Source of the DNA: Symbiodinium natans
Taxonomy: Eukaryota; Sar; Dinophyceae; Suessiales; Symbiodiniaceae
Assembly (NCBI GenBank): GCA_905221605.1
Contig: CAJNDS010000470.1
Location: 1 to 64,000, forward strand
Reading direction: 5' to 3'
DNA length: 64,000 bases
Numbering within the stretch: position 1 is the first letter of the stretch; every line of letters begins with the position of its first letter. Shown here piece after piece: positions 1,209 through 63,235 of this stretch. The translations under genes were made by a program, and so were the position numbers. A model generated the notes under the pieces. The model saw nothing but the letters and a program-made list of their open reading frames with translations, did no database searches and was not told where the DNA came from.

Positions 1209-1259
1209 GCGACCCCCTGGTGGGGGCGATCTGGATACGCCGCTTGACAGCAGTATCAG
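1209..1259 (+). CDS. Putative internal exon
   Basis: Acceptor GGCCCAG, frame DPLVGAIWIRRLTAVS, donor ATCAG|GTTTAGGG. A CCCTAAA array (1101-1144) lies upstream and a TTTAGGG array (1258-1296) starts exactly at the donor. Product unknown. Confidence 0.5.
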
Positions 1260-1823
1260 GTTTAGGGTTTAGTGTTTAGAGTTTAGGGTTTAGGGATGAA
1301 TACATTCACGACTTTACTATGACCAATTACTACAACAACAATGACAACTACTACTTCCACTACCAAGAATATTGCGAACGAGCGTGACAACTACTAGTTT
1401 CACCACCACCAGAGAAGGTTCTCCTTCATGTGCCAGAGCCCTGCTTGAATCTGTACTCGACCCGTAAACTCGGTCTGCAGCTGCTCTCCTGGAATCAGGG
1501 TTGAGGGTTTAGGGTTTAGGGTGAGCAAGCCCCAATGCCCGCGACTCCCGAATCATTGTACTTTGTGCGAGAGACAACAACACGAGACAAGATGCGAAGC
1601 GACCTCCCTCGCAGCTAGGCCCAATAGACAACCGGAAGAAAGCCAGTAGAACCCCGAAACAGTATGAAATAATTCCCGAAATCAAGCAAGAGAAAAAACA
1701 AAACATGCATACATAAATACATACATATCTATCTCATATTACATATAATAGAGTCTATTTGTTTATTTACCCTGAAATCCTGAACCCCAAGCCATGTAAG
1801 ATCATAGCAGTATGTATTTTGAG

Positions 1824-1903
1824 GCCACCTGGAACACCAGCCCGGATGCTTCTCCATCCGCCGACGGGCCATTCCGGGGTGACGGCGGCTGGCCCTGCAA
1901 AGG
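1824..1903 (+). CDS. Putative internal exon
   Basis: Acceptor TTTTGAG, frame ATWNTSPDASPSADGPFRGD..., ends TGCAAAGG before GCTTAGGGCTTAGGG, an apparent GC 5' splice site inside a G-type array. Degenerate CCTGAAATCCTGAACCCC precedes it. Confidence 0.55.
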
Positions 1904-2010
1904 GCTTAGGGCTTAGGGTTTGGGGTTTAGTAGGGTTTGTTTAGGGTTTAGGGCTTAGGGCTTAGGGCTTAGGGCTTAGGGTTTAGGGTGTATTTAGGGT
2001 TTAGGATTTA
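1904..2010 (+). repeat. TTTAGGG-type array with GCTTAGGG variants
   Basis: About a dozen imperfect units, several GGGCTTA; it begins at the apparent 5' splice site of the preceding exon. Confidence 0.8.
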
Positions 2011-2451
2011 GGGGTTATTTTGGGTGTAGTGTTTAAATCACTTCAGAAGCCAGAAAAACCTACTTTTTTTCTGTAGCCAATGAGAGTACACACCCCCCCT
2101 TTTTAGATTCTTAGGGAGCCTCCCCAGAAGAGGACTGACGGGATTCTTTAGGGAGCCCAAAACTGCGCAAGGGAGCGTTTTGGGCCGGTTTCGAGGCTTC
2201 GAAACCTTGAAGAAAAGGGCTTGCGTGACGCAGATACGTGAGTTCTTCGTTTCTTCTCTTCTGGGGTGTAGGGTTTAGAGTTTAGGGTTTAGGATGAACT
2301 CACAGAGACTGTTGCGACCTTTCTGCGGCACTTTTTTGGAACGCATGTGGCGAGATAGGTTCAGGCCCGGGCCCGGGCCAATTGCAAGTGAATCCCAGCA
2401 GGACACGTCCCCTTAAAGGCTTGCTTTTGTCAGTTGTCAATTTAGAGGGAC

Positions 2452-2553
2452 CCTAAACCCTAAACCCTAAACCCTAAACCCTAAACCCTAAACCCTAAAC
2501 CCTAAACCCTAAACCCTAAACCCTAAACCCTAAACCCTAACCCTAAACCCTAA
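2452..2553 (+). repeat. CCCTAAA array, about 14 units
   Basis: Near-perfect 7-bp units, ending just before the exon-like segment at 2587. Confidence 0.95.
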
Positions 2554-2586
2554 GCCGCAATTACTTGGCCACGAAGCCGAGGTGAG

Positions 2587-2675
2587 GTGATCCGGCCCCT
2601 CTTGAATCCCTTGCGTGCCAACATGGCCATGATGCCATCGTTCATGCAGGCCAGCCGGGCTCATGCCATCTTGGG
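2587..2675 (+). CDS. Putative internal exon
   Basis: Open frame VIRPLLNPLRANMAMMPSFM... between a CCCTAAA array upstream and GTTTACGAAAATAGGGTTTAGGG downstream, where a family C element start forms the donor. The acceptor (GGTGAG) is uncertain. Confidence 0.5.
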
Positions 2676-3035
2676 GTTTACGAAAATAGGGTTTAGGGTT
2701 CAGGGTGCAGGGGTTAGGGCATATAGATTTTCAAATAGTCGGATCCGTCTTATAAGACCCGATAAGGTACCCGGCCCTATCGGCATTCACATAGGCAGAT
2801 CTGCACAAGGTTTCAACCTTCAGCTTGCCTTAAGTTGCGTGTAGCCAAGCAGCATGTCGAGTCGCGAAGCACAAGAAAGCACGAAGGAGACGTGGATTTT
2901 GACTCTGACCTTTGTGCCCGGCAGCATCTGTTGCCAATTTGTGTGCGATGAGCAGCGTCGGCGTCGGTGCAGCTGCAGCATATAAGCTCCACGTTCACAG
3001 AGTCATGGCCCTAAACCCTAAACCCTAAACCCTAG

Positions 3036-3600
3036 GGACTCAAAGAACTATTTGCAATCAGGCGCGGGCGCCGCCCCCGCCTCCCCCACCACCACCGGGA
3101 CATGAAAGCTGGGTGGATGTGCCGCCCGGGGCTCAGCTGCTGTGAAAAGTTGGCAGAGAGCCCAAGTTGTTAGCCCAACACCGCTTAACTAAGGAATACT
3201 ATGCTATGTAGTGTTCTTAATTGAGGAGGATTAGACTATGCAGGGGTCTTGACTATGAGTTGAGGTCAACTCCTGTTTTTTTTTTTTTTTTGGGGGGGGG
3301 TTATAAGTATGGGAACTATACCTCTAGCGCTACTTAGAGTACTTATGACTCTACGTATAACCACCCATGAACCAACAAGTATTGTGTGCGACCACGAACC
3401 GCCGAATTCGGTCAGCACATCGTGGCTCAGAGGATGTCTAGGACGCTTAGAATCCTCGGCCCAACCTGGGACCCGTTGTGCCGGTATCTACTTACGGTTT
3501 AGTAGGAAGTACCCCTTGGTTAGTAGGTATACAGAGTAGGTATACAATCCTTAAAACTGTAGGTAAAGTGAGAGGGTCCCAGGTAAGCTCAACATGTCCT
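3036..3600 (+). other. No recognisable gene; T/G homopolymer junction and inverted-repeat remnant
   Basis: T15-16 followed by G9 at 3277-3300. Surrounding sequence (CTTATGACTCTACG, TATAAGTATGGG) resembles family B/D element remnants. A 76-codon open frame at 3309 has no gene-like features. Confidence 0.35.
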
Positions 3601-3605
3601 GGCCC

Positions 3606-3676
3606 CAACCTAAACCCTAAACCCTAAACCCCAAACCCCAAACCCTAAACCCTAAACCCTAAACCCTAAACCCTAA
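3606..3676 (+). repeat. CCCTAAA array with CCCCAAA variants
   Basis: About ten units preceding the exon at 3711. Confidence 0.9.
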
Positions 3677-3710
3677 CATAGAAGCCCACAAACCTCCAAA
3701 CCCAAACCAG

Positions 3711-3754
3711 GTTCGGAATGGCCCCTTCCAGCCTGCGGGCCGCGACCTCTTTTG
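3711..3754 (+). CDS. Putative internal exon
   Basis: Acceptor CCCAAACCAG, frame VRNGPFQPAGRDLF, donor TTTTG|GTGCGTTTTAGGGG. A CCCTAAA array lies upstream and a TTTAGGG array (3760-3905) downstream, the standard arrangement in this window. Confidence 0.6.
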
Positions 3755-3759
3755 GTGCG

Positions 3760-3905
3760 TTTTAGGGGTTAGGGTTTCGGGTTTAGGGTTTAGGGTTTCC
3801 GCGACTGTTGCTAAGACTTTCCGGCCAGGACATCATAGCCCGGATGCAACAAGGGTTTAGGGTTTAGGGTTTCGGGTTTAGGGTTTAGGGTTTAGGGTTT
3901 CGTCC
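3760..3905 (+). repeat. TTTAGGG array in three blocks
   Basis: Blocks separated by short unique pieces (3808-3850, ending CAACAAG|GGTTTAGGG). Confidence 0.85.
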
Positions 3906-4400: not shown

Positions 4401-4406
4401 TGTCAG

Positions 4407-4490: not shown

Positions 4491-4504
4491 GCCTGGGCCT
4501 TCAT

Positions 4505-6119: not shown

Positions 6120-6234
6120 ACCTTACCCCTAAACCCCAAACCCCAAACCCCACACCCCAAACCCTAAACCCTAAACCCTAAACCCTAAACCCTAAACCCT
6201 AAACCCTAAACCCTAAACCCTAAACCCTAAACCT
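6120..6234 (+). repeat. CCCTAAA array with CCCCAAA start
   Basis: About 15 units; immediately upstream of the exon at 6248. Confidence 0.95.
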
Positions 6235-6247: not shown

Positions 6248-6344
6248 GGCGACTTCGACTCGGGGGTTCGAAGATATCTTGGTGCACTGCGAGGCTGCCA
6301 GAATGGCAAGCCGTGACCTGAGGATCACGGCGGTCGGGTTTGAG
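6248..6344 (+). CDS. Putative internal exon
   Basis: Acceptor GTGGCAG, frame ATSTRGFEDILVHCEAARMA..., donor TTTGAG|GTGTTGGGGGTTTAGGG. It ends in phase 0, and the next exon (6748) starts in phase 0. A CCCTAAA array lies before and a TTTAGGG array (6353-6437) after. Confidence 0.6.
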
Positions 6345-6352
6345 GTGTTGGG

Positions 6353-6437
6353 GGTTTAGGGTTTAGGGTTTAGGGTTAGGATTTAGGATTTAGGGTTTAG
6401 GGTTTAGGGTTTAGGGTTTAGGGTTTAGGGTTTAGGG
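6353..6437 (+). repeat. TTTAGGG array, about 12 units
   Basis: It starts a few bases after the donor of the exon at 6248-6344 and is followed by a family A element. Confidence 0.95.
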
Positions 6438-13449: not shown

Positions 13450-13514
13450 CCAAACCCCTAAACCCTAAACCCTAAACCCTAAACCCTAAACCCTAAACCC
13501 TAAACCCTAAACCC
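13450..13514 (+). repeat. CCCTAAA array, about 9 units
   Basis: Between the 307-codon ORF and the exon at 13519. Confidence 0.95.
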
Positions 13515-13518: not shown

Positions 13519-13612
13519 GAAGCCCGAAATGCTGAGGAGAGCTTCGAGAGCTGCCAGGAGCAGCTGCAGGCGGCTCAGGACAAGGTCGCTGAGATCAAGG
13601 AGCCCTTTTTTG
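13519..13612 (+). CDS. Putative coiled-coil exon
   Basis: Acceptor AAACCCGAAG, frame EARNAEESFESCQEQLQAAQ... then DKVAEIKE, heptad-like. Possible donor TTTTTTG|GTGGGAG, followed by a G-run and TTTAGGG/TTTGGG units. CCCTAAA array before. Confidence 0.6.
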
Positions 13613-15030: not shown

Positions 15031-15130
15031 GTTGCTTTCCTGGGGCTGAAGGGCCCGGGGTTTCAAGTTGACGTTTGGCACGCGCGAGAGCTGCAAACAA
15101 ATGTCCGGCTTGCCGCTTGCGCTATTCCAC
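15031..15130 (+). CDS. Possible exon fragment between two CCCTAAA arrays
   Basis: Open frame VAFLGLKGPGFQVDVWHARE... across the whole 99 bp. Unlike most, it is followed by a C-type array, so its 3' border is unclear. Confidence 0.35.
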
Positions 15131-19690: not shown

Positions 19691-20057
19691 TCCTTCAAGC
19701 AGCTTGAGCCTCGATGAACGCAGTGCAAGTCTGACAGCTGTTCACAGACGAGGGCAGAGCAGGAGAGTGAGAGAGCGAGCGAGGGACATTTGGGTTTAGG
19801 GTTTAGGGTTTAGGGTTTAGGGTTTAGGGTTTAGGGTTTCAAGTGTTATTTTATATTCAAGGGGTTGGAGGGGTAGAAACCCTGTAGTGGAGCTGCAGCT
19901 TCGCCAAGTAAACACGCGTCAGCGCGGAAAGGGCGGCCGAAGAGCGTTGAGAAAGCCTTACCTCTTGGAAGGAACGCGGCTCCGGAACCAAAGTCGTTCT
20001 TATGGAGGCCCGGACCAGCACAGGTGTGGAAGATTCAGTGCTGAGCCCCGAAGCCTC

Positions 20058-20213
20058 CCTAAACCCTGGACCCTAAACCCTAAACCCTAAACCCTAAACC
20101 CTAAACCCTAAACCCTAAACCCTAAACCCTAAACCCTAAACCCTAAACCCTAAACCCTAAACCCTAAACCCTAAACCCTAAACCCTAAACCCAAACCCTA
20201 AACCCTAAACGCC
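20058..20213 (+). repeat. CCCTAAA array, about 22 units
   Basis: Nearly perfect; upstream of the exon at 20223. Confidence 0.95.
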
Positions 20214-20222: not shown

Positions 20223-20337
20223 GTACGCCCAAGGCGTCGCGGCCTGCCGTGATTTGATGGACTGCCCACGGGCCCTGGCCGCCGCGCAGCATGCGAAGGT
20301 GCCCGGAATTGAGGGCTTCAGGATCGGCCTCAGGACG
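20223..20337 (+). CDS. Putative internal exon
   Basis: Acceptor CAACCCCAG, frame YAQGVAACRDLMDCPRALAA... to IGLRT, donor GGACG|GTTAGGGTTC. It ends in phase 0; the next exon-like segment (21321) starts in phase 0. Confidence 0.6.
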
Positions 20338-21276: not shown

Positions 21277-21320
21277 CCTAAACCCTAAACCCTAAACCCT
21301 AAACCCTAAACCCTAAACAG
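21277..21320 (+). repeat. CCCTAAA array ending in CAG
   Basis: Five units followed directly by AACAG, the acceptor of the exon at 21321. Confidence 0.9.
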
Positions 21321-21355
21321 GTGGACGACCTGGCAGATTTGTCGGAGGCCTTCAG
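21321..21355 (+). CDS. Putative short internal exon
   Basis: CCTAAACAG|GTGGACG... reads VDDLADLSEAF and ends TTCAG|GTTTAGGG. Here both splice signals are continuous with telomere-type units: C-type at the acceptor and G-type at the donor. Confidence 0.6.
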
Positions 21356-28744: not shown

Positions 28745-28808
28745 AGGGTTTGGGGTTTAGGGTTTAGGGGTTTAGGGGTTTAGGGTTTAGGGTTTTAGGG
28801 TTTAGGGG
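28745..28808 (+). repeat. TTTAGGG array with TTTAGGGG and TTTTAGGG variants
   Basis: Here the last TTTAG unit appears to supply the acceptor of the following exon. Confidence 0.85.
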
Positions 28809-28898
28809 CTTGCCGGACAACTAAGGAAAGAGGCCCGCTTGAAAGAGACGGAACACATGTTCCGTCAGATCGAGGACCTTGAAGGTTTCCGGCTGTCG
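28806..28898 (+). CDS. Putative coiled-coil exon
   Basis: Frame GLAGQLRKEARLKETEHMFR... then QIEDLEGFRLS, donor CTGTCG|GTAGAGCC; 31 codons, phase 0. It joins in frame to 29116 across a 217-bp intron containing a family E element and TTTTAGGG units. Confidence 0.6.
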
Positions 28899-28909
28899 GT
28901 AGAGCCTTG

Positions 28910-29115
28910 GTGTGCCCAGTGGTACCCTTTACCCTTTTTTGGGGTTTTAGGGTTTTGGGGTTTAGGGTTTTAGGGTTTTAGGGTTTTTGGGTTTTTGGGT
29001 TTTTGGGTTTTAGGGTTTTAGGGTTTAGGGTTTTGGGGGTTCTGGGTTCCATTCTAAGGTAACCAACCCCAAAAACGGGTGCCCCTGATTCTAATATGGT
29101 TGCTGGGCTACCCAG
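28910..29115 (+). mobile_element. Family E element split by a TTTTAGGG array
   Basis: GTGTGCCCAGTGGTACCC at the left and GGTTGCTGGGCTACCCAG at the right are inverted ends. The right end supplies the AG acceptor. A TTTTAGGG/TTTTTGGG array occupies 28938-29050 between them. Confidence 0.55.
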
Positions 29116-33279: not shown

Positions 33280-33321
33280 GGGCATGTCTCCAACTACTGT
33301 GTCGACTTCATAGAGATTCTG
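33280..33321 (+). CDS. Possible short exon
   Basis: TTTAG of a TTTAGGG array as acceptor, frame GHVSNYCVDFIEIL, donor TTCTG|GTGATTC. Confidence 0.45.
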
Positions 33322-39611: not shown

Positions 39612-39620
39612 ATTTTTTTT

Positions 39621-42053: not shown

Positions 42054-43576
42054 TCACCAGCACTATGCAATAGCAGTTCAAACTCTGCCTGTAACATTTC
42101 AGCTAGTTTTGTCGCAGTTTCAGAGGTCGGCGAGTAGTCCACCCCCAATTTCTCCCGAAAGGATGCCACTCTGAAATGAACCGTAGGGTGTTTCGCCAGC
42201 AACGCGGATGACAAACCATCCAATCCCTTGATAAGCAAGGTAGCGTCCGGCTCAGCCGCTCTCAACTCCCTCAATCGGGAACGCCATTGCGCCCATTGAC
42301 GCACTCCCTTTATGGCCTCTGAGATCGAGGTTGCTGGAGATGGTTGCACCAAGAAGTTCAACATTGTGCTGCGCTCATTTGCTCCACCTGGTTGGTAGAC
42401 CGTCAGCAATTTGTAAAATATCATCACTGACCCCAACATTCGAGTGGAAACGATCTCGGTCTTCAATCTCTCCGGGATCGCCTGTAGCAGCAAAGACACC
42501 GCTCTCTGCTCCAACAAAACATGCACAGTTTGAACCACTTTGAGCCCTTCCAGCTCAGCCTTGATGCCCAACCTTTCCAGCGGAGAAACACTCAACCATT
42601 TGGCATACGCTTGATATGCCTTTGAGTAGACGCATTGCCACCACACTCTTCCTGTATCTGTCAGTGAAGACAACATTGGTTCGATCATTGCGATCCAATC
42701 ACCCAGTGCCGTCGGATTGCTTGGTGTGTAGTCTGCCAAAGTTGGAAGGCTCATCACATGCTTCCCGAGAGCCTCCGGACGTTCGGTTCCAGAACTATCA
42801 CCAGTGATTGGCATACCACGTGGCACCACTGCTCCAGGAGGTAAACTGACCCTACCACCAGGCCCTTGAGGTAGTCCATGTCCTATACCGGGCGCAACAG
42901 CTGTGAGCGGAACCTTTTCTAATTCCAACTTCCCAGCGACCATTTTCCACCGATACGGAACATCATCCACCATTGTATATCCACCCGATCCTGCTGAGTT
43001 CTCTTGCGTTGCAGTTTCCCGAGCTGAAACAAAACCGGGCTGGTTCCCCACAGGTGCGGCAGAACCATCAACACCTGACGGCACGGAAGTAATCGGAACA
43101 TGTGTTAAACCAGGTGGTCCACTTGCATATCCACCACTCGCAGGACCTCCCGTGGGGTAATTCAATGGAGGCAATCTGGAGGGTTTCTTCCCTTCAGCTA
43201 CATGCATCATTGGCACTTCTTTTTCATCCTCCACTTGAACATCCCCCTTCCTGGACCCAGGCAAGGATTGAAGATCACAACCCTTTGGCAGGTCGTAGCC
43301 CTCAATAGGCAGCCATGTCCCATCAGGCGACACAGTCCAAAAACCACCCACACCATCCGTGTAGAAAACTTGTCCTGGCAGGTACTGCTTCTCTGGAGTC
43401 ATTCCTAGAGGATATGCCGTGTTTGCGTCCACCACTCCAGAGCTCCGTGCCCTTGAAGCTGACCCAGATGCAGCAGAGGTGTAGCTTTTTTCCTCCGCCC
43501 GATGCAACCTGTTCCCCAGCTCCTTTGTCTGCACAAGCAACTCTTTCAGCGCACGCTTCACCTTCCATTTGTCCCA
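42020..43576 (-). CDS. gag: Element 1 Gag (capsid-like) reading frame
   Basis: This frame of about 513-519 codons opens after a stop at 43577-43579; the first ATG-like start used by software is a GTG at 43561, so it is probably reached by frameshift. The N-terminal part (LKELLVQTKELGNRLHRAEE) is coiled-coil-like. A Pro/Gly-rich middle follows, then an alpha-helical capsid-like region containing DWIAMIEPMLSSL and TVYQPGGANERSTMLNFL. I see no CCHC zinc knuckle, unlike element 2. It ends at TAG 42020-42022. Pol is in the -1 frame relative to it, overlapping only over 42020-42053, with the homopolymer CCAAAAAGG (42029-42037) inside the overlap. Confidence 0.8.
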   Translation of the reverse strand, partial: WDKWKVKRALKELLVQTKELGNRLHRAEEKSYTSAASGSASRARSSGVVDANTAYPLGMTPEKQYLPGQVFYTDGVGGFWTVSPDGTWLPIEGYDLPKGCDLQSLPGSRKGDVQVEDEKEVPMMHVAEGKKPSRLPPLNYPTGGPASGGYASGPPGLTHVPITSVPSGVDGSAAPVGNQPGFVSARETATQENSAGSGGYTMVDDVPYRWKMVAGKLELEKVPLTAVAPGIGHGLPQGPGGRVSLPPGAVVPRGMPITGDSSGTERPEALGKHVMSLPTLADYTPSNPTALGDWIAMIEPMLSSLTDTGRVWWQCVYSKAYQAYAKWLSVSPLERLGIKAELEGLKVVQTVHVLLEQRAVSLLLQAIPERLKTEIVSTRMLGSVMIFYKLLTVYQPGGANERSTMLNFLVQPSPATSISEAIKGVRQWAQWRSRLRELRAAEPDATLLIKGLDGLSSALLAKHPTVHFRVASFREKLGVDYSPTSETATKLAEMLQAEFELLLHSAGEQEVKLPKRQR

Positions 43577-43967
43577 TTAAGCCTGACGATGGTCTCTCAA
43601 CAGGTGCAGGTTCCTGACCCAAAAGATCTTGCAGCGAAGGCGGTCTTCTCGTACCTTCACCACTCCTATCCCCTCCGCTCGCGGGAAGACTTGCCGGCCT
43701 TGACTGCCTAAGTCTCATTTCTTCTTGAGCCCGCTCGCTCCAGAAAGGATTTGCTGCTTGAACCGGAACCACTTCGTTTTCCACCTGAGGCGTTGGTTGT
43801 ATCATTGCAACCTCCCTACCATCTGTCAGTGCTTGTACCATTTGTTGTCGATCTTCACCCCCATCACCACGATTTCCTTCGGCTTCATTGGCCGTTGGCG
43901 ACAGTCCAGGCTCAGAGCGACGCCGCATCATGTCCATGGCGTTAAACAAACGAAAAATCTTTACCAA
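43323..43967 (-). CDS. Element 1 short 5' ORF, probably the N-terminal part of Gag in another frame
   Basis: This 214-codon frame begins MVKIFRLFNAMDMMRRR and is rich in Pro, Glu, Arg and Ser, without a recognisable domain. The next frame, which carries the main Gag, opens just after an in-frame TAA at 43577-43579 and has no ATG at its beginning. The two frames overlap over 43323-43576. The natural protein probably reads this ORF up to about the QMEG residues (near 43560) and then continues in the +1 frame, either by programmed shifting or because one nucleotide was lost or gained. The tail of this ORF beyond the overlap is probably not translated as such. Confidence 0.6.
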   Translation of the reverse strand: MVKIFRLFNAMDMMRRRSEPGLSPTANEAEGNRGDGGEDRQQMVQALTDGREVAMIQPTPQVENEVVPVQAANPFWSERAQEEMRLRQSRPASLPASGGDRSGEGTRRPPSLQDLLGQEPAPVERPSSGLMGQMEGEACAERVACADKGAGEQVASGGGKKLHLCCIWVSFKGTELWSGGRKHGISSRNDSREAVPARTSFLHGWCGWFLDCVA

Positions 43968-43987
43968 TTCCGCAGGAAGCCTAATTT

Positions 43988-43999
43988 GGGCTCATAACC
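43988..43999 (-). promoter_or_regulatory. Primer binding site of element 1, initiator-tRNA anticodon type
   Basis: Directly after the 5' LTR the minus strand reads GGTTATGAGCCC, the complement of GGGCTCATAACC. That sequence is the anticodon stem-loop of initiator methionine tRNA. Drosophila copia is known to prime from a half tRNA-iMet cut in this region, so the same mechanism is inferred. The site adjoins the LTR with no gap. Confidence 0.6.
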
Positions 44000-46292: not shown

Positions 46293-46469
46293 TGGTAGCG
46301 GAGCCACTGGGAAAAGCCCAGGGCTTCGAGACACGACTTTGGTTTTCGCCCAGGCTTTGGAAGCCTTGTTTTGTAGTCTAGAGCCGAGATTTGAGCCATA
46401 GTTTTCAGCTGCTGTATTTTGGGCGATTTGCGAGATTGGCTGGCTTGAACTGTTGGACAGTTACAGGTC

Positions 46470-49400
46470 ATGGCCTTGACCCCAGAAGATGTTGCTCATC
46501 TCGTGAGGGCAGCAACAGCTGCAGCCGAGAGTGCCTCGAAAGCGGCTCTGGCAGCCGAGAGAGCTTCGCAGAGCAGCAAGGGCACAGGAAGAGCTGGATT
46601 CTCGGAAGCCTCCAAAGTCTGTAAGTGTCCAGACAGCTTTGGTGGTGGCACAGTCGAAGATGACCAGACAAAGTGGGCTGATTTTTCTATGGCGTTCAAG
46701 GCATGGCTGTATTATGGCGATGAGATGTTTCGTACAGACCTAGAGGACCTCGAGGCCACTAAGCTTGGGAAGGCCACTGTGTTGAGTGCATGGACTGATG
46801 AAGCTAAGGTCCGAAGCAAGCAGTTGTACTCGATTTTATGTGGCATCTTGAAAGGCAGAGCTCTTCAAGTTCTGCGGGCGACTAGTGAGCAGCATGGCTA
46901 CGAGGTCTGGCGACAGCTTGTAAATCTTTATAGCCCGCACACCAAGCAGAGGAGTCTGGGGATCATGACAGCGTTGATGAGTTTTCCTTCGTTTTCGAAG
47001 GATAGATCGTATCTCGAACAAATACAAGGGCTAGATCGGTTAGCCGAAGAGTTTCGCAAGTCCTCGGGCAAGGCGGTGCAGGACGAAATGATGCTGGGGA
47101 TCCTCACTAAAGCTTTGCCAGCACATGTGCGACAACAAGTTCAGCTTTCCATGTCTGAGTCTTCAACCTATGCAGAAGTGCGAGAACGCGTGCTGTCTTT
47201 TGAGACTGTGTCGCATGTGTACAATGCTTCGAAGATCCAGCAAGAGTTTGGCGTCGGTGCTGTCTACAATGGTCCTCAACCTATGGAAATAGATTTGGTT
47301 TCCAAGGGCAAAGGTAAGTGGTGGACCAAAAACAACCAAAAGGGTGACTACAAAGGAAAGAAGGGCGATGGAACAAAAGGAGGCCACAAAGATGATAGGA
47401 CAAACAAAGGCAAGGGCAAGGGTGACAAATCGGGTTCTGGAAAAGCTTCAGCTGACAAGGGCAAAGCTAAAGGGCAGGGCCAGGACAAAGTGCCGAAAGG
47501 GAACTGTCTGTACTGCGGGAAGCCGGGACATTGGAAAAAGGATTGTTGGCAAGCCAAGCGAGATGGTGCTGTTCGTGCTGTTACAGAGTCAGATGAGCCC
47601 AATACGCAACAACAGACAAGCGCAGCAGCAAGCAGCTCGGTTTCGCAGTCCTCGGCGTCCCAGGCAGGAGCAATCAGAAGGGTTTTGCAGTCCTCTAGTG
47701 CACCCAGAGCCTTTGCGTTCTTTGATTTGACGAGTCAAGATGAGTGTTACAAAGGGAGTGTTCGCATGGTAGAGCAGTACGACATGTCTTACAGCGACAA
47801 CGATGAACAGTGGACAGAATGTGGAGATATAGAGTTGATTTTGGACTCGGGAGCCGACCATAGCGCATTGCCTCTTCGTTTTGCCTCGATTGGCAAACCA
47901 GCAGGCGACTCAGGACATACCTTCGTGGATGCACAAGGGAATGATCTTCCTGTTGCACAGGTCCGAGTAGCAGAGGTTGCCTTGGGTGACATGTGCTTCA
48001 AAGAAAATTTCATCATTGCTCCTGTCAACAATCCACTTCTTTGTCTGGGGCGTCTTTACAAAGCTGGGTTTGAGGTGCGAAAATGGAATGATCAACTTCA
48101 GCTTGGATGTGAAGATCATGCTGTTCCAGTGGAGTTCAGGCGAAACAGTTTGGCAGTTCAGGGTTCAATCCGAATGTTGGAGCAAGCCAGGACGGGAACT
48201 GATGAGCGACTCCATGTGCGAGCCATCACTTTGCGATCAGTGCTTGCAAATCTGCCGACTGATGGGTCTTTGGTGCAAGTAGGTGAAGCAGTTTATGCCA
48301 GGTGCGGCTTCAGTGCCAACTACATCAACACGACCTTGCTTCCTCTGCAGTCGTTGCTGTGGAGGCGAACAACACTTGTGAAGCGAGTGGGGCAAGGTTG
48401 GGACTTGATAGAGTTCTGTGAGGACATCAGCAAGTTGGACGATTATGAAGCGGGCTTGCCTAATCCTCAGAACATCGAGCTGGTGATGACCATTGCGCAC
48501 GATCACGAAGTAAGCCCCGAAGAGCTTGGTTTCGAGTTTGACGCTGAGCCCGGTGAAGCAATGCCAAGGCATGGTGTTAGTCTTCATGCAGGTGTTGGTG
48601 TGGTTGATGAAAGTCAGGAGCCTGAGCAAGCCGAAGCAGTACCCGCAGCTCCTGATGAAGCCGAAGTACCTGTAGAGCAGCGACATGTCCCACTTGCCGA
48701 CAATGAGGTTGAGATTGATGGGGTCCGTTTGGACCTGAACTCGACACTGCAGGCCTTGAGAGCAGGTTGCGTTGCTCTTGGATTGACAAAGCGAGGGAGC
48801 AAGCAGCAATGTCTAGAGCGACTGCGACGCCACATCCAGGAACATGCTTTGTTGGCAGAGCACCAGGCGGTGGCTGCAGCAGTTGGTGACTCAGAAAGAA
48901 AGCCTCGTGGTGTGACTGAGCCGGGAAGTCCGACCCCCGAGCAGGTGGCGACTCACTGCATCACCCACCAGCCCTACAGAAGCTGGTGTGGACTCTGTGT
49001 GGCTCACAGGGCCAGACAGGATGCTCATCATGATTTGAACCATGCACACACTTCAGAGTCAGTGGTTAGTGTGGACTTTGGGTTCTGCAAGCGACAGGAG
49101 ACAGAGGCACATCTTCTGACAGTCCTGGTGGTTCACGATCGGCATTCTAAGGCTGTTCATGTGATTCCTTCGTTGAGCAAGGGTGGTCAAAGCCTTTCGT
49201 ATCTCACGACAGAGTTGACAAGATTTGTGGCATGGTTGGGACATCGCGAGGTTTGCTTCAAGTCCGATGGCGAGCCGGCTATCAAGGCAGTGGTTCGAAG
49301 TGCAGAGCGAGCATGCAGACAACTTGGTATTAAGGTTCGCAGTGTTACAACTCCGGTGGAAGATCATGAGGCCAATGGTGCAGTAGAGCAGGCATGGAAA

Positions 49401-52400
49401 AGCATAAGAGCGCATGCAGGTGTCATGGTTTCGCAAGTGGAAACCAATGGTGGTGCAGAAGGCCGAGTGGTGTTCGGGAGTTTGCATCCTTTCTACATGT
49501 GGTGCTTGGTGCATTCAGCTTGGATTCACAACAGATTTGTAGTGCAACATTCGTTGACAGCTTTTGAGCGAGTGACTGCGAGTCAGTATGTGGGGCGAAT
49601 CTGTTGTTATGGAGAGGTAGTGCTTGGATACCTTCGCACAAGTGCCAAGGCTGGGGCGAGATGGTGTAAAGGAGTATGGCTTGGGAAAACAACCCAGAAT
49701 GATACACACATCATCGCAACAGACCAGGGTTTGTTCTTGACGAGATCGGTGCGACGATTGGTGGAGCAGGACCGTTGGAGTCTTGAGCGCTGTGGAGAGG
49801 TGACTTTGGCTCCTTGGGAACATGGCTTTGCTAGTTTGGGTGGCAAGCTGGTGGTGAACAAGCGGATTGTGGCACCTCAAGTGGCAGCCCCGACTCCGAA
49901 TCCTGCACCTAGTCCTGCATTGCTTGGAGCTGGCGACGAATCAGAACGGGTCAGCAGCTCAGGCGAAAGCAGAAGGACCAGCGATGTTGAGGAGCCTGAG
50001 ATGCCGGCCGAGGCGGGGACCACAGAGATGCCTATGATTCACAGCAGGAGTGAAACCAGCAATTCGTCGATGTCACTGCCGAGTACTGGGTCGTCCAGTG
50101 AGCTTGTGCCAGATGAGGCCATGGCTTCAAGGACGAGAACAGCAGAACAGGCAGCTTGTGATGTGGCTACTGGGTTGAGTGAAAATCCTAGAAGCCCCAA
50201 GGCACTGAAGGTGAGACATGAAGTCAATCGACTGGAGTTTGCTTGTGTGTGCCAGATCAACGACAACAAGTATGAACATGAAGATGAGGCCATAGAGTGG
50301 ACCTTGTCTCCCGAAGAGCTCGATGACCTGGAAGAGTATGATCATTTAATCGAGGCAGAGCGACGTGAAGAAATCGACTGGGAGAACGTCGAGGCGCAGC
50401 TGGTGTTTCCGCGAGACACTGAACATGCACCGTGGTTGGATGAATCTGCGCTAGCTGCGTTGGACAGATTGGCTGATGAGTACGAACTCAAGCGGTTGAC
50501 AGATTTGAAGGTGCTACTTCCGCCAGATTCGAAAGAGGGACCACTGGTTGGTCGTGAAAACCCCAAGCAGCTCAGCACCAAGATGGTGCGAACGTGGCGG
50601 GAGAAAACAATGCCTGATCCTGTGACCAAGGTCATGCGCCCAGTGTGGCTTCGGCGCAGTAGGTACGTAGCTCGAGAATACAATTGGTTGAATCCTGAGC
50701 GAGAAGGTTTGTATGCGCCGGCTAGCAGCGCATTGATGACCAAGGTTTTACCTTCGCTTTACACGTACTTGCAGGCCCGGGATGGAGACTGGGTGCTGGG
50801 ATCGATGGATGTGTCAGACGCATTCCTCATGGTCGAGCAGGAGGTGGCAACTGAAGTGAGCTATCAGGACCCTGATGGGAGAGCAAGGAAATTTCTTCTG
50901 GGAAGACTTCTGCCAGGACAGCGTGATGGGACAGCGAAGTGGCATCGGAAGCTGAGCCAATGCCTAGAAACCGATGTGAATGCTACAGCTTGCGCTGCGT
51001 ATCCGAGTGCTTTTCGCTGCAACACCCCTCATGGTGCAGTTTTCTTGCAAACACATGTGGATGACATTGAGTTCTTGGGGAAGCGAGCAGCTGTGAAGCA
51101 AGATTTTAAGCCCGCCATGGAGAAGCACTTCAAGGTTTCATGTCAGCTTTTGGAGAAGCCCGGAGACGCTATGACATTTTTGAAGAGGTTGCATGTGTTG
51201 GGTGAGGGAAACACCTTGACCATTACCCCACATCCTAAACATGTTGAAAGGCTTATGGAGCTTATGGATCTGGAACCTCACATGTGCAACAAGAAGTGCC
51301 CTCTGATGCCAGGATATACCGAAATCGATGTGAGTTCAGCTTTGGACGTGCAGAAAGCTTCAGTATTTCGTACATGCATAGGCATTTTGCTTTACATGTC
51401 AGCTGACTTAATCGAAGCCCAGAACAGTGTCCGTTTCCTTTCGCAAAGAATGAGCAGTCCGAGCATGCGAGATTTTCGAATGTTGCGACATTTGGTGCAG
51501 TATCTTGGAGCGACTACAAACCAGGGATTGCTCATGACGCCTGAGAAAGGTGGTCTGTTAGGCCACGAGTATGATCGCGAGTGGGTTCTGGAAGCCTTCT
51601 CTGACAGTGATTGGGCCTCCCAGAAGGGAGATCGGAAAAGTGTGAGCTCTGGGGTTGTGGCTTTGCAAGGAAACGTTATTTATACGTCGTGCAGGTCCCA
51701 AAGAACGATTGCACTTTCGAGTGCAGAAGCCGAGCTATATGCGAGTGCAGGCGTTTTAGCAGACTGCATGTTGCTGCAAGTTGTCCTGTGCACCATGTTG
51801 GAGATTGAGGTTGAAGCGTTGCCGATTGAGTTGCATATGGATAGCTCTGCAGGTCGACAAGTGTGGATGAGATCTGGTGTTGGTAGAATCCGTCACCTTT
51901 CATGTCGTGTATTGTGGGTACAACAACATGTGATGAACGGGCGAGTTAAAGTTTCGCATTTGAGAGGTGAGCTCAATCCTGCTGATGTGTCCACAAAGCT
52001 GTTAACAAGAAGTCGTATGCGATTCCTGATGTACCTCATGAAGGTCGTTGATGCGTACACACATGAGAGAATTGGAGAGACAGAGTACAACCTGTATCTA
52101 GAAAAGCGAACAATGCAGATTGCAATTCAGCAAGTGAAGCGCCTTGAGCCTGGGAAGATGAATGGCAGAGCAAAGCAGGCCATTCGTGGCTTGGTGATTG
52201 CTTCGCTCACTTCGAGTGGGATGGCAAGCGAGTTGAGCGAGGAAATGGTGTGTATCTCGATGACTTCGACAACAGGTATCGGGCGACTTGTCATGACAGT
52301 TTTGGTGGTGATGGTTTGCGTGGGCTTAGGTGCGTTGTGGCTGAGATGCGTAAGGGTGAGCGAGCCTGAGCAGACAGATGAGCGACCAGCAGCAAACATG

Positions 52401-52433
52401 GGAGATGATGCTGAAACCCAGACAGACGAGTGA
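46470..52433 (+). CDS. gag-pol: Element 2 Gag-Pol polyprotein (1987 aa) with SAP domain
   Basis: The ATG at 46470 is 178 bp after the LTR and begins MALTPEDVAHLVRAATA. Gag capsid-like helices lie at about 60-260. The basic linker and zinc knuckle are CLYCGKPGHWKKDC (C346, C349, H354, C359). Protease is LILDSGADHS (Asp459). Residues about 748-785 (LDLNSTLQALRAGCVALGL...) resemble a SAP DNA-binding domain. Integrase: zinc finger H829/H833/C840/C843; catalytic Asp869, Asp933 and Glu973, with 39 residues between the last two. Reverse transcriptase: SMDVSDAF (Asp1447) and HVDD (1529-1532), where His replaces the usual Tyr. RNase H: Asp1712, Glu1753/1755, Asp1791, Asp1839. A single transmembrane-like segment lies at about 1937-1961, before an acidic tail. 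No stop or frameshift interrupts the frame. Confidence 0.95.
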   Translation: MALTPEDVAHLVRAATAAAESASKAALAAERASQSSKGTGRAGFSEASKVCKCPDSFGGGTVEDDQTKWADFSMAFKAWLYYGDEMFRTDLEDLEATKLGKATVLSAWTDEAKVRSKQLYSILCGILKGRALQVLRATSEQHGYEVWRQLVNLYSPHTKQRSLGIMTALMSFPSFSKDRSYLEQIQGLDRLAEEFRKSSGKAVQDEMMLGILTKALPAHVRQQVQLSMSESSTYAEVRERVLSFETVSHVYNASKIQQEFGVGAVYNGPQPMEIDLVSKGKGKWWTKNNQKGDYKGKKGDGTKGGHKDDRTNKGKGKGDKSGSGKASADKGKAKGQGQDKVPKGNCLYCGKPGHWKKDCWQAKRDGAVRAVTESDEPNTQQQTSAAASSSVSQSSASQAGAIRRVLQSSSAPRAFAFFDLTSQDECYKGSVRMVEQYDMSYSDNDEQWTECGDIELILDSGADHSALPLRFASIGKPAGDSGHTFVDAQGNDLPVAQVRVAEVALGDMCFKENFIIAPVNNPLLCLGRLYKAGFEVRKWNDQLQLGCEDHAVPVEFRRNSLAVQGSIRMLEQARTGTDERLHVRAITLRSVLANLPTDGSLVQVGEAVYARCGFSANYINTTLLPLQSLLWRRTTLVKRVGQGWDLIEFCEDISKLDDYEAGLPNPQNIELVMTIAHDHEVSPEELGFEFDAEPGEAMPRHGVSLHAGVGVVDESQEPEQAEAVPAAPDEAEVPVEQRHVPLADNEVEIDGVRLDLNSTLQALRAGCVALGLTKRGSKQQCLERLRRHIQEHALLAEHQAVAAAVGDSERKPRGVTEPGSPTPEQVATHCITHQPYRSWCGLCVAHRARQDAHHDLNHAHTSESVVSVDFGFCKRQETEAHLLTVLVVHDRHSKAVHVIPSLSKGGQSLSYLTTELTRFVAWLGHREVCFKSDGEPAIKAVVRSAERACRQLGIKVRSVTTPVEDHEANGAVEQAWKSIRAHAGVMVSQVETNGGAEGRVVFGSLHPFYMWCLVHSAWIHNRFVVQHSLTAFERVTASQYVGRICCYGEVVLGYLRTSAKAGARWCKGVWLGKTTQNDTHIIATDQGLFLTRSVRRLVEQDRWSLERCGEVTLAPWEHGFASLGGKLVVNKRIVAPQVAAPTPNPAPSPALLGAGDESERVSSSGESRRTSDVEEPEMPAEAGTTEMPMIHSRSETSNSSMSLPSTGSSSELVPDEAMASRTRTAEQAACDVATGLSENPRSPKALKVRHEVNRLEFACVCQINDNKYEHEDEAIEWTLSPEELDDLEEYDHLIEAERREEIDWENVEAQLVFPRDTEHAPWLDESALAALDRLADEYELKRLTDLKVLLPPDSKEGPLVGRENPKQLSTKMVRTWREKTMPDPVTKVMRPVWLRRSRYVAREYNWLNPEREGLYAPASSALMTKVLPSLYTYLQARDGDWVLGSMDVSDAFLMVEQEVATEVSYQDPDGRARKFLLGRLLPGQRDGTAKWHRKLSQCLETDVNATACAAYPSAFRCNTPHGAVFLQTHVDDIEFLGKRAAVKQDFKPAMEKHFKVSCQLLEKPGDAMTFLKRLHVLGEGNTLTITPHPKHVERLMELMDLEPHMCNKKCPLMPGYTEIDVSSALDVQKASVFRTCIGILLYMSADLIEAQNSVRFLSQRMSSPSMRDFRMLRHLVQYLGATTNQGLLMTPEKGGLLGHEYDREWVLEAFSDSDWASQKGDRKSVSSGVVALQGNVIYTSCRSQRTIALSSAEAELYASAGVLADCMLLQVVLCTMLEIEVEALPIELHMDSSAGRQVWMRSGVGRIRHLSCRVLWVQQHVMNGRVKVSHLRGELNPADVSTKLLTRSRMRFLMYLMKVVDAYTHERIGETEYNLYLEKRTMQIAIQQVKRLEPGKMNGRAKQAIRGLVIASLTSSGMASELSEEMVCISMTSTTGIGRLVMTVLVVMVCVGLGALWLRCVRVSEPEQTDERPAANMGDDAETQTDE

Positions 52434-59539: not shown

Positions 59540-59555
59540 GGGGCCTTCAGTTCAG

Positions 59556-60277: not shown

Positions 60278-60356
60278 CCTAATCCTACTCCTACTCCTAC
60301 TCCTACTCCTACTCCTACTACTCCTACTCCTACTACTACTACTACGACGACGACGA
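60277..60356 (+). repeat. CTACTC/ACG microsatellite
   Basis: Trinucleotide-related CTACTC units giving Pro-Thr repeats in one frame. Confidence 0.9.
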
Positions 60357-60504
60357 TGCATCATTCGACTTTTGATGCCTGTCATGCAAGGTGCAGAGGG
60401 CCTGAGTGCAGCAGACAATCACGTCCGGAAGCTGGCCAGCATGCCAAGCGCGAACGAATCTGTAGAAGCGGCTTGGCCAGCAAAGATGCAATTCTCGCAA
60501 TAGT

Positions 60505-60700
60505 AATGCTTTCTTCATCGTAAAATACTAGTAATAATGTAATTATATAATAGTGATAAGAATGGTAATAACAGAAGTGGTAGTAAGAGCAGAAATAATG
60601 GTAATAGTAATAGCAATAGTAGTAATGATCGTAAGAACAGTAATAATGGCAATAGTAGTAATATGAGTAGTAACAAGAATGACAGCACGGACCTTGATGG
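60505..60700 (+). repeat. Degenerate TAR/AGTAATA trinucleotide region
   Basis: Imperfect AGTAATA and GTAATAG units; the leucine-rich reverse frame is an artefact. Confidence 0.8.
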
Positions 60701-60800
60701 AAGTATAGTTGGGCAATCGTTTCCCAGCGTAGTAGGCAAAGTCATAAACCCTGAACCCTTTAACCCTAAACCCTAAACCCTAAACCCTAAACCTTGTCAG

Positions 60801-60930
60801 GAGCTGTATCGGAAGCGCACGCAAGATGAGGATGCAGTGCCGCCACTGCACCGACAAACCCATTCGATGCCCGACTTAAACAGCGACTCTCACACCACCA
60901 ACTCTCACGCCACGGAGGCTTGGGAATTAG
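60801..60930 (+). CDS. Putative internal exon, 43 codons
   Basis: AAACCTTGTCAG acceptor after CCCTAAA units, frame ELYRKRTQDEDAVPPLHRQT... to EAWEL, donor GAATTAG|GTTTTAGGGTTTAGGG. Other frames are closed. Confidence 0.65.
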
Positions 60931-61019
60931 GTTTTAGGGTTTAGGGTTAAGGGTTTACGGTCCTCGCCTTTCATGGGGCATCGGGTTGAGGTTTTTTGTC
61001 AGGGAGGCGAGCATGAACT

Positions 61020-61215
61020 AATCCCCTCCCCCTTCCCACCCCTAATATGAAATGCCCCCCCCCCCCCCCCTTACTATATACTATATACCATCATATAGCT
61101 ACAATGGGAGTATTAATCATTGAAAAAAAGGGGGTTGGGGGGTTAATATCAGGGGGAGGGGAATTAGCAACCCGCATCGCTTTGGCTTGTGATGGGACAA
61201 TCCTCTCACCTTGTT
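61020..61215 (+). other. Intron-like; C-run and AT-rich hairpin-prone segment
   Basis: CCCCTCCCCC and C16 at 61022-61072, then TACTATATACTATATACC and a G-rich complement (61125-61160): a short element with CCCCTCCCCCTT / AGGGGGAGGGGA inverted ends. Confidence 0.4.
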
Positions 61216-61221
61216 GAACAG

Positions 61222-61272
61222 GCGTCCCGGCGATACAATGACGACGTGGATCGATGGCTCCGAAGACTATTG
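61222..61272 (+). CDS. Exon 1 of a phase-consistent five-exon run
   Basis: TTGTTGAACAG acceptor, frame ASRRYNDDVDRWLRRLL (17 codons, phase 0 both ends), donor CTATTG|GTGGCC. Confidence 0.6.
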
Positions 61273-61467
61273 GTGGCCGGGGCCCTAGGGAGATTTAGTT
61301 TTTCTCTGCCTGGTAGGGAATGCGAACGAATGTTCTGAGATTTGGGCTTGATTCGCGTGCTGATCTCCAGGTTCTAGTAGGGTGTTTAGCCTTTAGCCAT
61401 GGCTAGGTTTCCAAAGGTTGTCACCTTAGCCCCATGAATGGTGAGCATGCAGACTAGGACCAGGAGC

Positions 61468-61512
61468 CCTAAACCCTAAACCCTAAACCCTAAACCCTAA
61501 ACCCTAAACCCT
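61468..61512 (+). repeat. CCCTAAA array, 6 units
   Basis: Ends CCCTTGGCAG, the acceptor of the exon at 61519. Confidence 0.95.
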
Positions 61513-61518
61513 TGGCAG

Positions 61519-61612
61519 GACGTCAATATCTCGCACAAGTCTTTGCCGTCCTTGCCGGCTCAGCATCAGATCTGCACTCATTTGGACAAGGCCTGGCATG
61601 GGCCTGCCAAGG
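61519..61612 (+). CDS. Exon 2 of the five-exon run
   Basis: Frame DVNISHKSLPSLPAQHQICT... to WHGPAK, donor GCCAAGG|GTTTAGGG. One base carries over and completes GCC with the first two bases of 61828. Confidence 0.7.
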
Positions 61613-61827
61613 GTTTAGGGTTTAGGGTTTAGGGTTTAGGGTTTAGGGTTTAGGGTTTAGGGTTTAGGGTTTAGGGTTTAGGGTTTAGGGTTTAGGGTTA
61701 CTGGGCCATCCTGACAGAGATGTTGCGCGAAGTGCAATTTTAACATCCCTTGGAGCTGCGAGGGATTCCCTCCCCTAAGCCCTAAGCCCTAGACACTAGA
61801 CCCCAGACCCTAAACCCTAACCTTAAG
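61613..61827 (+). other. Model telomere-repeat intron, 215 bp
   Basis: Begins GTTTAGGG with a 12-unit TTTAGGG array (61612-61699) and ends with C-type units (61779-61822) and CCTTAAG. The two arrays are complementary and could fold the intron back on itself. Confidence 0.65.
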
Positions 61828-61956
61828 CCTCTCCGGGGCCCTTCGAGGTGCACAACTGGTTCGACCGAAGCCGAAGTGCTGCCAAAGACTTGACGGAGAG
61901 TGCTGGGGCCAAGAAGCCCTCGGCAGCAAAGTCGCCAATGCAGGCGAGCTGTAGGG
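61828..61956 (+). CDS. Exon 3 of the five-exon run
   Basis: Frame SPGPFEVHNWFDRSRSAAKD... then LTESAGAKKPSAAKSPM, donor TGTAGGG|GTTAGGG. One base carries over. Confidence 0.7.
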
Positions 61957-62012
61957 GTTAGGGTTTGGGGTTTAGGGTTCAGAGTTTGGGATCTCACGTA
62001 GGGGTCGGAGTG

Positions 62013-62078
62013 TGGGATGCTCCTCCAGAGACTAACAGTCCTTAATGGGGATTCTAGTACCCCTGTTATAAGGGTTTA
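62013..62078 (+). mobile_element. Family A element, 5' part
   Basis: GTGGGATGCTCCTCCAGAG...GGGATTCTAGTACCCC. Confidence 0.55.
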
Positions 62079-62084
62079 TGGGGG

Positions 62085-62180
62085 TCTCCGAAAATAGGGG
62101 TGCCTTATTCGGGTCCTGATTATAAGGGAATCCTACCATTGTGGGTCTATATGAGGGATCCCCTTATTCACGTAAAATCC
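62085..62180 (+). mobile_element. Family C element
   Basis: GGGGGTCTCCGAAAATAGGG at the left, TATTCACGTAAAATCCC at the right. Confidence 0.5.
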
Positions 62181-62284
62181 CATATAGGGGTCGGAGAAGT
62201 TATCGTATTCCTTTATTGTCTCTATGTAATTGTACTATAACAATCCCCCCAAACCCTATCCTAATTACTCAGGCCCCGTATATT
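62181..62284 (+). mobile_element. Family B element (type copy)
   Basis: CATATAGGGGTCGGAGAAGT at the left, CTAATTACTCAGGCCCCGTATAT at the right (inverted), about 104 bp, directly abutting a family C copy. Confidence 0.65.
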
Positions 62285-62464
62285 ACATGATAAAAATCAG
62301 CACATTGTACATGCTGAGACGCCGCCCGAAGCCAGAGACGCGCAGTACATGTCGCTAAGAATCAGCCAGTTGCGAGCGCAGGAAAGCTACATAACATAAG
62401 TAGCCGGCAGCCAATCTTCGACATACGTTGGCTGCGTGTCCTTTTTACTTCTTTTGGTGAAGAC

Positions 62465-62555
62465 AGGTTTCCCTCCTAAACCTTAAACCCTCTACCCTAA
62501 ACCCTATACACTATACCCTATACCCTGTACCCTATACCCTTTACCCTAACCCTCC
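62465..62555 (+). repeat. CCCTATAC variant array
   Basis: CCCTATA/CCCTGTA/CCCTTTA units, a variant block distinct from CCCTAAA. Confidence 0.85.
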
Positions 62556-62661
62556 GCCTCTAGTAATCTTAAGGCGAAGGCCCTATGCCACGCCACATCT
62601 GAGCCTTGTAGTCCGTGAGGTTAGACTCAGTTTTTCCGGGGGGGTTGGCATATGTTCTCAT

Positions 62662-62745
62662 TTGGGATGATCCCCCTTATACTGACAGTCCTTAGTAGAG
62701 ATGAATCCCTACTAGGGGCTGTTAGGATAAGGGGGAACATCCCAA
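62662..62745 (+). mobile_element. Family A element (type copy)
   Basis: TTGGGATGATCCCCCTTAT at the left and ATAAGGGGGAACATCCCAA at the right are near-perfect 19-bp inverted termini, with a further internal palindrome (CTTAGTAG...CTACTAGG). Confidence 0.75.
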
Positions 62746-62767
62746 GTTATGATCTGTCTGCCCACAG

Positions 62768-62810
62768 AATTCCCTAAAAGGCCAAGCTTCAGTTCTGTAG
62801 ATAGCCTGCG
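62768..62810 (+). CDS. Exon 4 of the five-exon run
   Basis: CTGCCCACAG acceptor. With one base from exon 3 it reads EFPKRPSFSSVDSL. Donor GCCTGCG|GTTTAGGG; two bases carry over. Confidence 0.65.
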
Positions 62811-62957
62811 GTTTAGGGTTTAGGGTTCGGGGTTAACTTGAGGCACGTAAGAGAGTCCTCTGGCAAGAAGGGTGCCGGTCAGGTCCTGCATGCTTTTTCT
62901 GGAATCCCCCTCCCAGTCCAGATTGAGAAAAAAGGGCATGAGACCGCACATAAACTT

Positions 62958-63033
62958 TAAACCCTAAACCCCAAACCCCAAACCCCAAACCCTAAACCCT
63001 AAACCCTAGACCCTAAACCCGAAACCCTAAACA
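62958..63033 (+). repeat. CCCTAAA/CCCCAAA array
   Basis: 3' part of the intron 62811-63060, whose 5' end is GTTTAGGGTTTAGGG. Confidence 0.9.
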
Positions 63034-63060
63034 CAAGCCAGGCTGGGATTTACTTGCCAG

Positions 63061-63171
63061 CTGGGAGCCCACCCTTGCCCGGGTCGGTGAAGTGGCAAAG
63101 ACCCGAGTGCAAGAAGACTCCCGGCAGACAGCGTCGCGCTTGGAGATGTTGCTCTCACGCGCTCCCTCCGG
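63061..63171 (+). CDS. Exon 5 of the five-exon run
   Basis: TTACTTGCCAG acceptor; completes CGC and reads WEPTLARVGEVAKTRVQEDS... then RLEMLLSRAPS, donor TCCG|GGTTTAGGG region (63172). The sequence is coiled-coil-like. Confidence 0.7.
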
Positions 63172-63235
63172 GTTTAGGGTTTAGGGTTTAGGGTTTAGGG
63201 TTTAGGGCTTAGGGTTTAGGATTTAGGGTTCCTAG
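63172..63235 (+). repeat. TTTAGGG array, about 8 units
   Basis: Starts at the donor of the exon at 63061. Confidence 0.95.

Follow-up and report, generated by a model that had tools for sequence, protein, structure and literature searches.

Across a 64,000-nucleotide stretch of the genome of the dinoflagellate Symbiodinium natans (contig CAJNDS010000470.1, positions 1 to 64,000; hereafter the window), putative coding segments of exon size tend to be preceded by arrays of the telomere-type repeat CCCTAAA (C-type arrays) and followed by arrays of its complement, TTTAGGG (G-type arrays). The case is one of complementary-repeat introns with a telomeric unit, and the polarity of the arrays around exon-sized coding segments is real, genome-wide and partial. 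The status of TTTAGGG as the telomere unit of this species is taken from its group (PMC11453091). Arrays of the repeat lie inside contigs in great number: the assembly (759 Mb, 2,543 contigs) contains 1,184,385 forward and 1,185,204 reverse matches to a CCCTAAA 21-mer. Counting arrays with a length of at least 14 bp, the window has 71 of C-type and 68 of G-type, 139 in all.

Because the pattern of a C-type array, a gap and a G-type array is symmetric under reverse complement, its polarity can be counted without knowledge of the gene strand. Among the gaps of 30-180 bp between arrays in the window, 32 run from C-type to G-type and 19 from G-type to C-type; in 20,000 shuffles of the array labels, the C-to-G count had a mean of 18.4 (standard deviation 3.0) and a maximum of 31, so that the observed value was never reached (p = 5e-5). 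The window was compared with 20 other 10-kb pieces of the genome (L001-L020), 19 of which are readable (L017 is all N, and L011 and L015 are partly N). These pieces gave 38 C-to-G and 17 G-to-C gaps, with a shuffled C-to-G mean of 26.7 (standard deviation 3.7, maximum 40, 5,000 shuffles), and pooling them with the window gave 70 C-to-G versus 36 G-to-C gaps (binomial p = 0.0012). Further, adjacent arrays in the window switch type more often than they repeat it (88 versus 50, p = 0.0015); in the other pieces, the corresponding numbers (112 and 89, p = 0.12) are not significant alone. Over the whole genome, the pattern (CCCTAAA)2 N{85,115} (TTTAGGG)2 was found at 107,320 places and the reverse order at 41,057, a ratio of 2.6:1; these counts include overlapping starts, so the independent places are fewer, and searches with reversed letters as controls returned 0 matches. 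The spacing spectrum over the 246,400 known bases of the window and L001-L020 showed a C..G peak at 115-205 bp (67, 88 and 82 versus 18, 15 and 15 for G..C), an excess of G..C at 250-430 bp (45 versus 12 C..G at 300-330 bp) and equal numbers at 500-530 bp (32 C..G and 33 G..C). The C..G and G..C peaks thus lie at the distances expected for exon-sized and intron-sized spacing, respectively.

A preliminary description of the window had listed 19 coordinates at which a plus-strand segment was said to follow a C-type array and precede a G-type array. This two-sided arrangement was borne out at 18 of the 19 when the nearest unit on each side was scored; the one failure is site 6748, where the segment closes with an AAACCCT unit that immediately precedes the G array. 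Spliceosomal introns of dinoflagellates have an AG acceptor, mostly with G as the following base, and GT, GC or GA donors. An AG directly precedes all 19 coordinates, and in 14 cases a G comes after it, although the sites were originally picked on such signals and the donors assigned by eye. The C unit lies 1-68 bp before the coordinate (median 11) and the G unit 36-132 bp after it. Representative segments and their arrays are as follows (a slash marks a putative splice border).

1098..1143, C-type array, upstream of the putative exon at 1209
1209..1259, + strand, putative exon, ...GGCCCAG/GCGACC ... TATCAG/GTTTAGGG; two frames open
1259..1295, G-type array on the donor side of the exon at 1209
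3609..3676, C-type array
3711..3754, + strand, putative exon, AACCAG/GTTCGG; all three frames open
6127..6233, C-type array, 15 units
6248..6344, + strand, putative exon with a single open frame (ATSTRGFEDILVHCEAARMASRDLRITAVGFE)
6352..6437, G-type array, 12 units
13456..13514, C-type array
13519..13602, + strand, putative exon with a codon score of 17.1, the top score among those listed (EARNAEESFESCQEQLQAAQDKVAEIKE); 3' end uncertain
20057..20210, C-type array, 22 units
20223..20298, + strand, putative exon, AACCCCAG/GTACGCC; 3' end uncertain, and codon score favouring the opposite strand
21277..21318, C-type array that continues into the acceptor, CCTAAACAG/
21321..21355, + strand, putative 35-bp exon directly between arrays, CAG/GTGGACG...CTTCAG/GTTTAGGG
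28746..28808, G-type array (exception), directly upstream of a coding-like segment at 28830-28925

Because it is open in all three frames, 3711..3754 taken alone is a weak case for an exon. The proposal that the splice signal can be part of the repeat unit itself suits some cases only, among them 21321, on both sides, and the 3' border of the exon at 1209. The three exceptions named in the same description proved to be as described, with arrays of C-type on both sides at 15031, G-type on both sides at 28806, and G-type on the left and C-type on the right at 33280. At the coding-like segment 28830-28925, the G-type array may provide the acceptor (TTTAG/GG), and a second G-type array follows the segment.

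To assess whether the C-to-G segments are coding, we used a codon model whose main training sequence was the genome's Prp8 frame, array-free in the part examined; a Copia-type frame of the window contributed at lower weight (about a quarter of the total). Gaps of 50-160 bp were scored as z values over dinucleotide shuffles, with retroelement stretches excluded. The C-to-G segments had a mean z of 1.36 (n = 65), with 38% above 1.64, compared with 0.05 for G-to-C (n = 27), 0.12 for C-to-C (n = 25) and 0.60 for G-to-G (n = 27, 22% above 1.64); the difference was significant against G-to-C (p = 1.3e-4) and against all other orders (p = 2.5e-6). The G+C content was likewise higher in C-to-G than in G-to-C segments (0.592 versus 0.512, p = 2e-8). 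By stop-free length, the C-to-G and G-to-C segments could not be told apart (p = 0.057).

Protein-level evidence came from the minus strand of C550, where the putative exons VHPAEV...ASK, VKGVLVSGEAR and VIPCD...LPE each follow a C-type stretch, which is degenerate in the case of the second exon, and precede a G-type array. Joined by eye with a fourth exon, they matched the Pfam family DAO (FAD oxidoreductase) over its cut-off (E 9e-7), and the match spans residues 1-59, which are the product of the three array-flanked exons. A model with two more exons reached E 1.9e-9. The E-values of these joined models are flattering because the exons were picked by eye with the family motifs in mind; the collinear order of the exons is independent of that choice. 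Taken alone, the first exon matched DAO at E 0.11 and the third did not match, whereas the two added exons joined by themselves matched the end of the profile (328-353) at E 0.12, behind a chance match to another family at 0.045. A search of PDB sequences with the oxidoreductase model gave weak matches only, the best (0.28) being an FAD dependent oxidoreductase. Both added exons are true exceptions to the polarity: NIYLACGHNCWGIL lies between an upstream G array and a downstream C array, and no array is close to the last. A PA14 candidate in L014 was rejected as below the cut-off (16.1 of 24 bits), and a simple program that chained exons under splice penalties proved too weak. Overall, the codon signal and the DAO domain rebuilt over introns indicate that many C-to-G segments are exons, as had been claimed for the listed segments, and therefore that the introns tend toward inverted telomere-type ends.

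Within the window, four putative exons named P, Q, R and S (60801-63171) read through as a single frame if AG acceptors and GC donors are used.

60764..60791, C-type array
60801..60917, + strand, exon P (putative, ELYRKRTQDEDAVPPLHRQTHSMPDLNSDSHTTNSHATE), GC donor placed by eye from the frame
61467..61508, C-type array, 3' end of intron P-Q
61519..61590, + strand, exon Q (putative, DVNISHKSLPSLPAQHQICTHLDK)
61614..61697, G-type array, 12 units, 5' end of intron Q-R
61848..61943, + strand, exon R (putative, VHNWFDRSRSAAKDLTESAGAKKPSAAKSPMQ), start placed 20 bp downstream of the 61828 given earlier
62962..63031, C-type array, 3' end of intron R-S
63038..63171, + strand, exon S (putative, PGWDLLASWEPTLARVGEVAKTRVQEDSRQTASRLEMLLSRAPS), acceptor ACACAAG/ set by eye to fit the frame; the 63061 given earlier marks a further AG within the exon
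63173..63228, G-type array downstream of exon S

The donor of P and the acceptors of R and S were chosen with the frame in mind, and R and S differ from the coordinates of the preliminary description. The P-Q-R-S protein had no Pfam match of note (best 0.12).

That the two ends of such introns can pair, another point of that description, was supported by computation. The C and G units are exact complements, and a five-unit duplex has a computed energy of -62.6 kcal/mol; in the model, a quadruplex is a further structure open to the G-type RNA (-8.4 kcal/mol). In five predicted folds, the pairs joining the first and last 120 nt numbered 54 in intron P-Q, 70 in Q-R, 37 in R-S, 77 in A-B and 81 in B-C. 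Only the two 400-nt ends of A-B were folded; the folded stretch of P-Q begins 3 bases before the preferred donor, and that of R-S ends 2 bases before the preferred acceptor. For Q-R, the sole intron with a shuffled control, the 70 pairs compare with a mean of 24.6 and a maximum of 63 in 50 shuffles. In P-Q and Q-R, no more than 4 nt separate the outermost pair from the ends of the folded stretch; in the others, the distance is up to 32 nt.

We tentatively propose that assistance of splicing by a stem is the likeliest reason for which the orientation of the arrays has been kept. In this scheme, interstitial telomere-type arrays would have accumulated in introns and, near splice sites, would have been kept mostly one way, with TTTAGGG after the donor and CCCTAAA before the acceptor. 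The complementary arrays could then pair in the pre-mRNA into a long stem, looping out the intron and bringing the two splice sites close, which may help the spliceosome to recognise weak and variable donors (GT, GC, perhaps GA). The G-runs after the donor and the AG-free, CTAAA-containing stretch before the acceptor may add further benefit. We infer that the stem would form in the cell and that splicing would depend on it.

Several results weigh against this proposal or against a strict form of the polarity. Because any G array pairs with any C array, the folds speak for the possibility of a stem and not for selection on it. Kinesin domain matches spanning no more than 60 positions, in frames no longer than 150 codons, a criterion fixed before the flanks were seen, comprised 45 of 98 matches, and 30 of these 45 exons have no array of at least two units within 250 bp on either side. 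Scored by the majority type within 250 bp, the upstream sides were C in 7 and G in 5 cases and the downstream sides G in 7 and C in 2, amounting to 14 concordant and 7 discordant sides (p = 0.19); where arrays stood on both sides, five exons were of the order C-exon-G and one of the order G-exon-C. By the nearest single unit, the ratio was 11:5 within 60 bp and fell to 13:8, 14:9 and 15:12 within 100, 150 and 250 bp. Likewise, coding segments picked independently of arrays showed the bias at codon score thresholds of 8, 9 and 10 (94:61, 69:39 with p = 0.005, and 51:29) and none at the strictest threshold of 12 (17:16). At the array edges (394 outer, 396 inner), CAGG was mildly enriched (0.325 outer versus 0.255 inner per 45 bp) and CAGGT was not (0.051 versus 0.061). 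The polarity is thus a statistical bias, clearest near the exon and not universal: the C-to-G excess stood up genome-wide, and the earlier wording of it as a rule was overstated.

The even ratio at the strictest threshold, together with the very high density of arrays in the window, could also suggest that chance, misassembly or selective reading is at work, with arrays lying everywhere and the eye choosing the exon-like gaps between them. This is very improbable in view of the label shuffles, the other genome pieces, the whole-genome ratio and the codon test, and the whole-genome counts refute chance as a full explanation.

The partial nature of the bias suits selection acting on each intron end separately, and an alternative to stem-assisted splicing is tolerance that depends on orientation and needs no pairing. 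Here, array expansion would be random, and arrays close to exons would be retained only in the orientation that does no harm or is of use: C-type arrays would be safe before an acceptor, and GGG runs after a donor would enhance splicing through U1 or an hnRNP-like protein. An enhancer role of GGG runs after donors is known from animals. Consistent with such tolerance, CCCTAAA contains neither AG nor GT, whereas TTTAGGG contains AG and, across units, GT. However, avoidance of cryptic sites alone predicts C-type arrays at both ends, whereas a G-type array follows the exon at the listed sites, and G-type arrays directly before coding-like segments exist (28746-28808). Tolerance thus accounts readily for the C side and less readily for the G side, and as the full account we regard it as unlikely.

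A second alternative concerns origin and not function, namely that the introns were born or enlarged as insertions with inverted telomere-type ends, the polarity being a fossil of the event. Such an insertion could be an introner or foldback-like element with terminal repeats of this kind, or could arise when telomerase heals both ends of a double-strand break, adding TTTAGGG onto each 3' end before the ends are joined. Either event would yield the order exon-TTTAGGG...CCCTAAA-exon automatically, whatever the gene strand. In line with this, nearly head-to-head arrays lie beside coding-like segments in L012 (3539-3613, spacer 6 bp) and L013 (5090-5163, spacer 7 bp), and 10 G-to-C junctions with a spacer of at most 60 bp were recorded across the window and L001-L021. 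In mammals, break repair is described as a source of interstitial telomeric sequences, some of them head-to-head (PMC7215372), and dinoflagellates are described as having introners whose ends are inverted (PMC7789003, PMC10666404, PMC9860276). On the other hand, array edges lack a sharp register and have no fixed distance to AG (1-68 bp), which weighs against the simple form of an insertion; likewise, insertion at the donor in a fixed phase found no support, as neither array starts nor array ends showed a sharp register. None of 48 GTTTAGG array starts had a preceding AG, although this is an unfair test since AG/GTTTAGG falls under another register. Moreover, the two arrays of one intron shared no unit variants in the cases inspected by eye, and most G-to-C spacings are hundreds of bp. 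An origin by such insertion is possible and, on balance, somewhat doubtful. A more specific version, which we consider improbable, holds that telomere DNA itself makes introns: telomerase would heal both ends of a break within a gene, the ends would then be rejoined head-to-head, and the insert, carrying a GT donor, a branch-like CTAAA and self-complementary ends, would be spliced from the outset. If so, this lineage would gain introns as a by-product of telomere-type break repair, with the stem as a built-in splicing aid. Stem-assisted splicing, an origin by inverted insertion and tolerance at each end are not mutually exclusive.

According to the preliminary description, introns of telomere sequence of this kind are not known to have been described, and our search of open-licence papers for telomere-repeat introns showed no account of them among the papers listed. 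Related systems are known. Lin et al. (Genome Research, 2016) reportedly described fish introns whose two ends bear complementary repeats, AC at one and GT at the other, with a bridging stem and no need of U2AF2 for splicing. These share complementary simple-repeat expansions at opposite intron boundaries with the present introns, in which the expansions appear as a bias, whereas the present repeat is the telomeric heptamer and the host a dinoflagellate. In the nonconventional introns of euglenids, base pairing of the intron ends brings the splice sites together, and the borders are not of the spliceosomal type; unlike these, the present introns appear to have AG acceptors and GT or GC donors. 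The introners of Amoebophrya have complementary ends of 8-20 nt that are family-specific, with direct repeats of 3-5 nt at the borders and a hairpin proposed to join the exons (PMC7789003). They resemble the present case in their dinoflagellate lineage, in inverted repeats at both intron ends (here as a bias) and in a predicted hairpin joining exon boundaries, and differ from it in that here the ends are tandem telomere-type arrays with one unit genome-wide and a variable distance to the splice site. As for direct repeats in the present introns, an AGG at each border would follow from the splice consensus by itself. Introners with simple inverted repeats in Prorocentrum cordatum (PMC10666404) and Symbiodinium microadriaticum (PMC9860276) likewise have inverted repeats at both intron ends; the string 'telomer' has 0 occurrences in the main texts of these two papers. 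The interstitial telomeric sequences of mammals are also internal telomere-type arrays and sometimes head-to-head; the human ones are described as absent from exons, with 31% in introns, a distribution compatible with random insertion (PMC7215372). The relevant passages of that paper deem an effect on splicing interesting to test and, unlike here, give no splice-site polarity for the mammalian sequences. In Karenia, interstitial telomeric signals detected by fluorescence in situ hybridization are rare (PMC6395649).

The density of arrays in S. natans is very uneven, with some 10-kb pieces containing none and others more than 20 (L005, L006, L008, L009 and L018 versus L001, L012, L013, L019 and L020). 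The Prp8 PROCN domain in L021 (G000:C1079:511077-515294) lies in an uninterrupted, array-free frame of more than 900 codons, which indicates that intron-poor and array-rich genes coexist in the genome. L018 (G000:C850:20001-30000) is G+C-rich and array-free with many long frames, one of which resembles by eye a Pif1-type helicase; the stretch looks like inserted virus-like or mobile DNA. In the window, 35157-43991 (- strand) and 46449-52433 (+ strand) are retroelement regions with long open frames and no telomere-type arrays inside. The 46449-52433 frame is Copia-type by its relatives: among the 93 matches listed, those named by organism are all from Symbiodiniaceae, at about 25-42% identity, and a single identical protein covers 57% of the query. 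Rfam and tRNA scans of the window were empty. A recurring element-like sequence (GGAATGAGGGAATGAGGTACCC...) was noticed by eye on the minus strand of L012 (about 865-990 and 1640-1740), with its complement present at the opposite end, and in the window at about 63850-64000.

These findings touch on two open questions, the origin of introns and the handling by the spliceosome of the variable splice sites of dinoflagellates. A single known unit, the telomere repeat, standing in a preferred inverted order around exons at very many places provides a clean and testable case. Whether the arrays arose by break repair, from an element or by slippage plus selection, the arrangement would link telomere biology with intron gain or with intron splicing.

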